From Tubiluchus corallicola (taxonomy: Eukaryota; Priapulida; Priapulimorpha; Priapulimorphida; Tubiluchidae): a stretch of DNA of 64,000 bases. The position numbers were made by a program, and so were the translations under genes. Below the pieces are notes generated by a model that saw only the letters and a list, made by a program, of their open reading frames with translations, was not told the origin of the DNA and searched no databases. Of the stretch, positions 38,163-40,013 are shown piece by piece; position 1 is the stretch's first letter, and each line of letters begins with the position of its first letter. The stretch spans positions 434,001 to 498,000 of the forward strand of contig JAQGDQ010000019.1 in assembly GCA_030141605.1 (NCBI GenBank), read 5' to 3'.

Positions 38163-38809
38163 GTTCTGTTTTGACTATAATACTCAAATGATAGTAAAAT
38201 TATATTATAGTAATAATCAAAAAGAATATAAAAATAAGCGCTTGTAAAAAAAGCGACATGAGTTAACTGCATTGTATTTTCGAAAAGGTTTCTGTTGTCG
38301 AGAAGTAGAAAGTTATGTAGGGCGCCGAGTAATCCACTAGCCGAAGTAGGACACTTCCGGTAAAACGCATGTTCTAAATTTGCGGAAAAGCAGTGCGTAC
38401 ATGGACAGCCCAAGTGAGGCACTAGCGATTTTTGTCAAGAATCGATAATTATGACATAATAAAACGTAAAATTAAATTTGTTTTAGAAAAAAGTAACTTT
38501 ATAAAATGATGGATGGTCCTTGACAATTTACTTTTTACAACAATATCATCATTATTATTAGCTCCATTAATAATTATCATCATAACATTAAACTAAGTAT
38601 CTAATGCTTTAAAGAGAGAAACTACGTAGGGCACATAACTCGCTAACCCGTTTACTTAGTAGAAAATAATTATTGGTCCAAGAGGGAGTGAAAAGAATCA
38701 CCTGTCTGTGAAGCAAGACAAAATAAAAAATAATATACCTTAAGCAGATGTTGAAATCACCTAAACAGTGAGCTTATTTCACTTCAAAGAACACTAACAT
38801 TGGCAAATT

Positions 38810-39733
38810 ATACTTGTTGGGAGCCGTTTGGACCACTGCGCCAAGTAGACCACTTGATGCGCTAAAAGTAGTGGCCTACATGGGCAGCCCAAGTAGGACA
38901 CTAGCGATTTTTGTCGAGAAACTTGCTCTGGCAAAACTTGTTTCCAGTTTATATTACCATTGTTTATAAGTATTGTTATGACATAATAAAGCATAAAACA
39001 AAATTTCTTTTAGAAATGGATATTCCTTGGCAATTTACAAATGCATTTCTTACAATAATTTCATCATTATGATTAACTCCATTAATATATCATAACATTA
39101 AACCTAGTATCTAATGCTTTAAAGAGAGAAATTCTGCACACAGTTATTACAGAAATAATTGCAAATTTAAAAATGAGACAGATGCTGCTAAGCCTTCACA
39201 ACACCGAAAAGTAATTTTTAACATTTAAGAAAAGCAAGGATAATTAGTTTTAATATTATCAGTAGTATTGTAACATGTAGGGCACTGTCCTACATGGCTC
39301 GCTAGCCCATGTAGAACACATAGATTGCTAGAACGTTTACTTACAAGAAAACAATTATTTGCCCAAGAGGTAGTGAAACGGATCACCTGTTTGTGAAGTG
39401 AGACAAAATCAAAAATGATATACCTTAAACAAATGTTGAATTCGCAAAAAAGTGGGGTTTTTTCACTTCAACAACATTAATATCGAAACCAAATTTAATA
39501 TTGTCCGTTCTACCAGCTCAGAATAAAATTCTTTTATTTTATTAGATGTATAATAAATTATTCAACGTGTGTTAACGTTTTTAATTATTATTATTACATA
39601 AACAAGCACAACGGACGGTGTCAGTACACTTAACGACTGAATTCACGACCTGTCTCTAGTGTCCTACTTGGGCAGCCCAGGTAGACCAATTGGTCTACTT
39701 GGCGCAGTGGTCCAAACGGCTCCCAACAATACT
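38810..39733. mobile_element. Inner nested TGTTGGG-type element (38815-39728) with 5-bp TSD
   Basis: Identical 38-bp inverted repeats at 38815-38852 and 39691-39728, starting TGTTGGGAGCCG. They are flanked by the direct repeat ATACT (38810-38814 and 39729-39733). Length is 914 bp. Its interior is homologous to the element it sits in (ATGACATAATAAA, ATTAACTCCATTAATAT, AAAGAGAGAAA and CTCAGAATAAAATTC blocks), so it is a family member inserted into a relative. No open frame of note. The perfect ends suggest it is younger than its host. Confidence 0.88.
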
Positions 39734-39880
39734 AACTCAGAATAAAATTCGTTTATTTTATCAGATGTATAATAAATTATTCAACGTGTATTGACATGTT
39801 TAATTATTCTTATTACATAAACAAGGACAACGGACGGTGCCAGTACGCTTAACGATTCAATTCGCGACCTCTCTCTAGTG

Positions 39881-39970
39881 TCCTATTTGGGCTAGCGCGT
39901 GTACGACGCGACCTACTTGGGCTAGCGCGTGTACGACGCGACCTACTTGGGCTAGCCCGTGTACGTCAAT
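39881..39970. repeat. Three 30-bp subterminal direct repeats in the outer element
   Basis: Units at 39881, 39911 and 39941 share the core CCTACTTGGGCTAGC followed by GTGTACG. The copy at the left end of the window has only one such unit, so this array expanded in this copy. Confidence 0.9.
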
Positions 39971-40013
39971 TGTCCTACTTTGGCTAGTGGATTACTCGGC
40001 GCCCAACAAGTTA

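Follow-up and report, generated by a model that had tools for sequence, protein, structure and literature searches.

The two elements nested at positions 38311–40013 of the window (the whole 64,000-nucleotide stretch of Tubiluchus corallicola DNA that was analysed, which belongs to contig C1477 of the 343.5-Mb assembly) are, in the reading that we hold to be fairly probable, members of one lineage: two subfamilies of non-autonomous, MITE-like DNA transposons, moved in trans by a transposase that is encoded elsewhere and that we infer to be Ginger/TDD-like. They are short, non-coding, bounded by terminal inverted repeats (TIRs), multicopy and flanked by target site duplications (TSDs). The same window also contains animal-type genes, for example Sprouty and an exocyst Sec10 exon. 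The features of the nested pair are:

38311..38315, left TSD of the outer element (AGTTA)
38316..40008, outer element (774 bp once the inner element and one ATACT are subtracted)
38316..38353, + strand, left TIR of the outer element (36/38 against the right arm)
38810..38814, left TSD of the inner element (ATACT; a single copy at the empty sister site)
38815..39728, inner element (914 bp, without a long open reading frame)
38815..38852, + strand, left TIR of the inner element (38/38 against the right arm)
38872..38907, + strand, subterminal inverted repeat arm (36 nt, 89% complementary to 39653–39688)
39653..39688, − strand, subterminal inverted repeat arm, partner of 38872–38907
39691..39728, − strand, right TIR of the inner element
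39729..39733, right TSD of the inner element (ATACT)
39882..39971, + strand, three tandem 30-nt units near the outer element's right end
39971..40008, − strand, right TIR of the outer element
40009..40013, right TSD of the outer element (AGTTA)

Re-reading the sequence showed that an earlier note on this DNA had given the coordinates and letters of both nested elements correctly, and it reproduced the arm identities claimed there (inner 38/38, outer 36/38) as well as the exact 5-bp flanks, AGTTA outside and ATACT inside. The outer and inner arms are identical at 26 of 38 positions, and long stretches of the inner element's interior are ~81–95% identical to the outer element, so the two form one lineage, in which the inner copy landed in an older member. 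The longest stop-to-stop frame in the inner copy in the window is 80 aa. The subterminal inverted repeat of the inner element is a possible, putative second binding site.

Direct evidence for clean insertion comes from the comparison of filled and empty sites. A sister copy of the outer element in contig C1022 (L039:7785-8565) can be aligned over its whole length and reads, uninterrupted, AAAATATACTAACTC with one ATACT, whereas the same place in the window reads AAATTATACT, the inner element, ATACTAACTC. The single ATACT at the empty site is direct evidence that the insertion of the inner element was precise and created a 5-bp duplication. The locus that holds the sister copy (L039, C1022:203000-212000) contains three related elements, nested, and a ~2.3 kb part of it is tandemly duplicated.

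The TSDs of 57 copies with both flanks were surveyed (48 of the inner and nine of the outer type). An exact 5-bp TSD is present in 39/57 and an exact 4-bp TSD in 7/57, and another 7/57 carry a 5-bp TSD with one mismatch; the remaining copies comprise one 7-bp match in a CA-rich context and three with no duplication. In the control of mispaired ends, a 5-bp match turned up in 1.5% of cases and a 4-bp match in 0.75%; a 5-bp TSD is thus the norm, and the less frequent 4-bp TSD is real as well. The duplications described in the earlier note are genuine, and typical of the family. The 39 exact 5-bp sites display a weak palindromic target preference, R-W-H-N5-D-W-Y, with an information content of 2.31 bits over the 13 central positions (null maximum 0.88 in 2000 simulations): the third base outside the TSD is a purine in 65/78 half-sites and never C, the second is A/T in 65/78, and the base adjoining the TSD is G in only 7/78. 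Retroviral integrases are known for comparable weak palindromic target preferences, a likeness that we regard as suggestive only.

Genome searches with the element ends found them in many copies on both strands. The inner 28-base end gave 141+141 matches with up to three mismatches and the outer-type end 205+219, against none for the reversed-sequence controls, so the ends are not a product of chance. The first 23 bases of the inner end were matched exactly at 175 places, of which 172 were listed in a pairing census; the listed ends form +/− pairs, mostly 0.85–1.0 kb apart. Eight partnerless exact ends were read and all belong to the same element, most with the other end truncated or mutated; a pattern for altered ends returned three mutated single ends. 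A search for a third TIR type found none, a search of the viral contigs with the element end gave no match, and a literature search found no paper with these ends. The same loci occur in up to six contigs (redundant haplotigs: C1752, C1831, C1974, C2072, C2074 and C2107), which inflates the counts, so independent insertions are fewer than matched places; we put the family at roughly a hundred copies.

The inner family is young and has been mobile recently. Among 24 aligned inner copies, 23 lie within 0.1–1.2% of the consensus, and the outlier, L016, differs from it by 12%; this copy (L016:1501-2490) has kept both ends and had its middle third swapped for ~300 bp of unrelated non-coding DNA. 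Divergence is 0.33 and 0.44% in the two TIRs versus 1.17% in the core, a figure inflated by L016. Inner copies fall into length classes of 914, 944 and 974, corresponding to 0, 1 or 2 units of ~29–30 bp near the right end, exemplified by the palindrome AGCCCAAGTAGACCGCGGTCTACTTGGGC. Shortened derivatives that retain both ends measure 471 bp (inner type) and ~93 bp (outer type); the latter, at C1522:185992-186084, is barely more than two inverted ends and lies directly upstream of an exon-like ATG frame. At C2146:5741-11382 two inner copies stand ~4.8 kb apart, a possible inverted duplication or assembly palindrome to judge from the flanking bases only. The family is without coding capacity and cannot have moved itself. 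The earlier view of the pair as non-autonomous DNA elements thus holds across the family, which is non-coding and consists of inverted-end pairs ~0.9 kb apart.

No transposase-bearing copy with these ends was found among the ends read, outside which lie 107 inner-type ends with 1–3 mismatches, three exact ends and most outer-type ends; the source of the transposase may well be among that remainder. Neither the exact-end census split by flanking base (172/175 ends) nor the reading of ends in which the TIR is followed by an unusual base revealed a driver. Forty outer-type ends were sampled 380–579 bp inside, and most proved to be the known element, about a dozen being unrelated DNA. One of the sampled ends, C1522:185992, seemed to have a coding exon behind the TIR but was rejected as a driver, as the exon is not part of the element, which measures only ~93 bp. 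Searches for the rve and H2C2 families (the best 150 of 443 and of 631 candidates) yielded mostly LTR retroelements and bacterial contigs, and the integrase matches that were read, in part, are LTR retroelements, one Polinton-type integrase and bacterial transposases. Short-ORF integrase loci, several of them read in part, were set aside because they resembled LTR retroelements or a Polinton-type integrase.

Judged by eye from the translations, L084 (C1534:34000-39000), L088, L089 and L090 contain open frames that run from a protease-like region directly into an H2C2/integrase region with no reverse transcriptase (RT) between, and the frame of L084 also includes a gag-like region; they may be Gmr1-like retroelements, in which integrase precedes RT, or may have arisen by deletion. 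L099 (C1626:62100-63300) appears, again by eye, to hold a Polinton-type integrase frame. Contigs or stretches C31, C1700, C1763, C1719 and C197 (L046-L058, L061-L063, L067-L068) look bacterial, with IS3-like and other transposases and membrane-type proteins, and we take them for contaminants of the assembly or for symbiont DNA.

The mobilization that we propose would begin with a transposase, supplied in trans, that binds the TIRs and perhaps the subterminal repeats too. The enzyme would be of DDE type and retroviral-integrase-like (Ginger/TDD-like); the 3′-CA ends would attack phosphates of the target DNA at a spacing of 5 bp, and host gap repair would then make the TSD. The carrier is probably an integrase-type (Ginger-like) enzyme, for which the TGTTG ends, together with the reported TSD lengths, make a Ginger/TDD-like enzyme the best guess. 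All of the integrase/IS3 group has TG...CA ends with 4–6-bp TSDs, so this likeness is not enough to name the family. As neither the RTATAY target with 4 bp nor CCGG is seen here, and no enzyme was found, Ginger membership is not established: our best guess at the superfamily is that the family works like a Ginger/TDD element, not that it is one.

The earlier note had suggested a non-autonomous line of an undescribed superfamily, which would show the same insertion behavior under a transposase unrelated to Ginger. This we consider unlikely. By ends and TSD the elements indeed match none of Tc1, hAT, piggyBac, PIF, Mutator and Transib, but the note's comparison omitted Ginger/TDD, whose hallmarks (TG...CA ends of TGTNR type, TIRs of tens of bp and 4–5-bp TSDs) cover what is seen here, so that an undescribed superfamily is not required (PMC2836005, PMC10045372). 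What remains of the suggestion is that no transposase was found with these ends among those read and that neither Ginger1 nor Ginger2, the published animal groups, is matched by the target preference and the 5-bp TSD; against it, the ends and TSD lengths fall within the range described for integrase-type transposons, and the absence of a driver is weak evidence because the 107 mismatched inner-type and most diverged outer-type ends lie outside the reading. A broader reading, less likely than not, takes the family either for a non-autonomous line, active in recent times, of an undescribed superfamily or for a new animal branch of Ginger that makes 5-bp TSDs and has a symmetric target preference of its own.

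The elements could instead be mobilized in trans by an integrase from an LTR retrotransposon or Polinton resident in the genome, with no dedicated DNA transposon involved, but this appears improbable. Gypsy-like integrases are abundant in this genome and LTR elements make 3–6-bp TSDs (PMC10045372), but no LTR element or Polinton was seen with these 38-bp ends, and Polinton TSDs are reported as 6 bp (PMC10045372). The proposal that the copies are solo LTRs draws on the TG...CA ends, the 5-bp TSD and the many gypsy-like elements in the genome, and we reject it as very improbable: the 38-bp inverted ends are perfect and enclose nested subterminal inverted repeats, the 471-bp and ~93-bp derivatives keep both ends, and among the 172 listed exact inner ends no direct pair flanks a gag-pol or other body, the sole close pairs being the C1022 tandem duplication and the C2146 pair with its inverted-duplication-like flanks. 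The earlier note's leaning away from solo LTRs is thereby upheld. Transib, or another known DNA transposon class with 5-bp TSDs, has next to no likelihood, since Transib termini start CAC and every copy read here starts TGTTGGG.

A young, well-bounded family of this kind gives a clean view, in an animal, of the footprint that an integrase-like DNA transposase leaves. If the enzyme is of Ginger type, 5-bp TSDs would be extended from the Dictyostelium TDD elements to animals, helping to test how TSD length evolves in the lineage connecting DNA transposons with LTR retrotransposons; otherwise the family would point to an enzyme not yet known.

Among known systems, IS481EU shares TNT/TGT...ACA ends, short TIRs and integrase-related enzymes but has TSDs of ~4, 15 or 25 bp and is reported only from parabasalids, whereas IS3EU/GingerRoot, also with integrase-related enzymes, has 6-bp TSDs and mostly TA...TA ends (PMC10045372). 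Solo LTRs and TRIMs are likewise short and non-coding, with TG...CA ends and a 5-bp TSD, in contrast to the inverted ends, unpaired copies and end-retaining derivatives found here. TGTNR ends are common to Ginger1, Ginger2 and Gypsy LTR elements, and the TSD lengths given in the literature are 4 bp (Ginger1), 4 or 5 bp (Ginger2/TDD), 6 bp (Polinton) and 3–6 bp (LTR elements) (PMC2836005, PMC10045372). Ginger1, with TIRs of ~40–270 bp, resembles the present family in its termini but duplicates 4-bp CCGG/CCGT (PMC2836005), unlike the 5-bp TSDs here, which lack that sequence. Animal Ginger2 makes 4-bp TSDs in RTATAY and TDD-4/5 make 5 bp (PMC2836005); here the TSD is mostly 5 bp, within R-W-H-N5-D-W-Y. 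Published Ginger2/TDD TIRs span 45–297 bp (PMC2836005), against strict arms of 38 bp plus subterminal inverted repeats, and the H2C2 and DDE integrase-type transposase of that group was not found with the present ends among the ends read and the best 150 of 443 and of 631 integrase candidates. The likenesses to Ginger2/TDD are the termini (TGTNR...YNACA there, TGTTG...CAACA here), TIRs of tens of bp, TSDs of 4 or 5 bp (39 exact 5 bp and seven of 4 bp here, n = 57) and multicopy non-autonomous derivatives, for which Ginger2-1N1_NV, a non-autonomous Ginger2 with >50 copies in an animal, is the precedent (PMC2836005).
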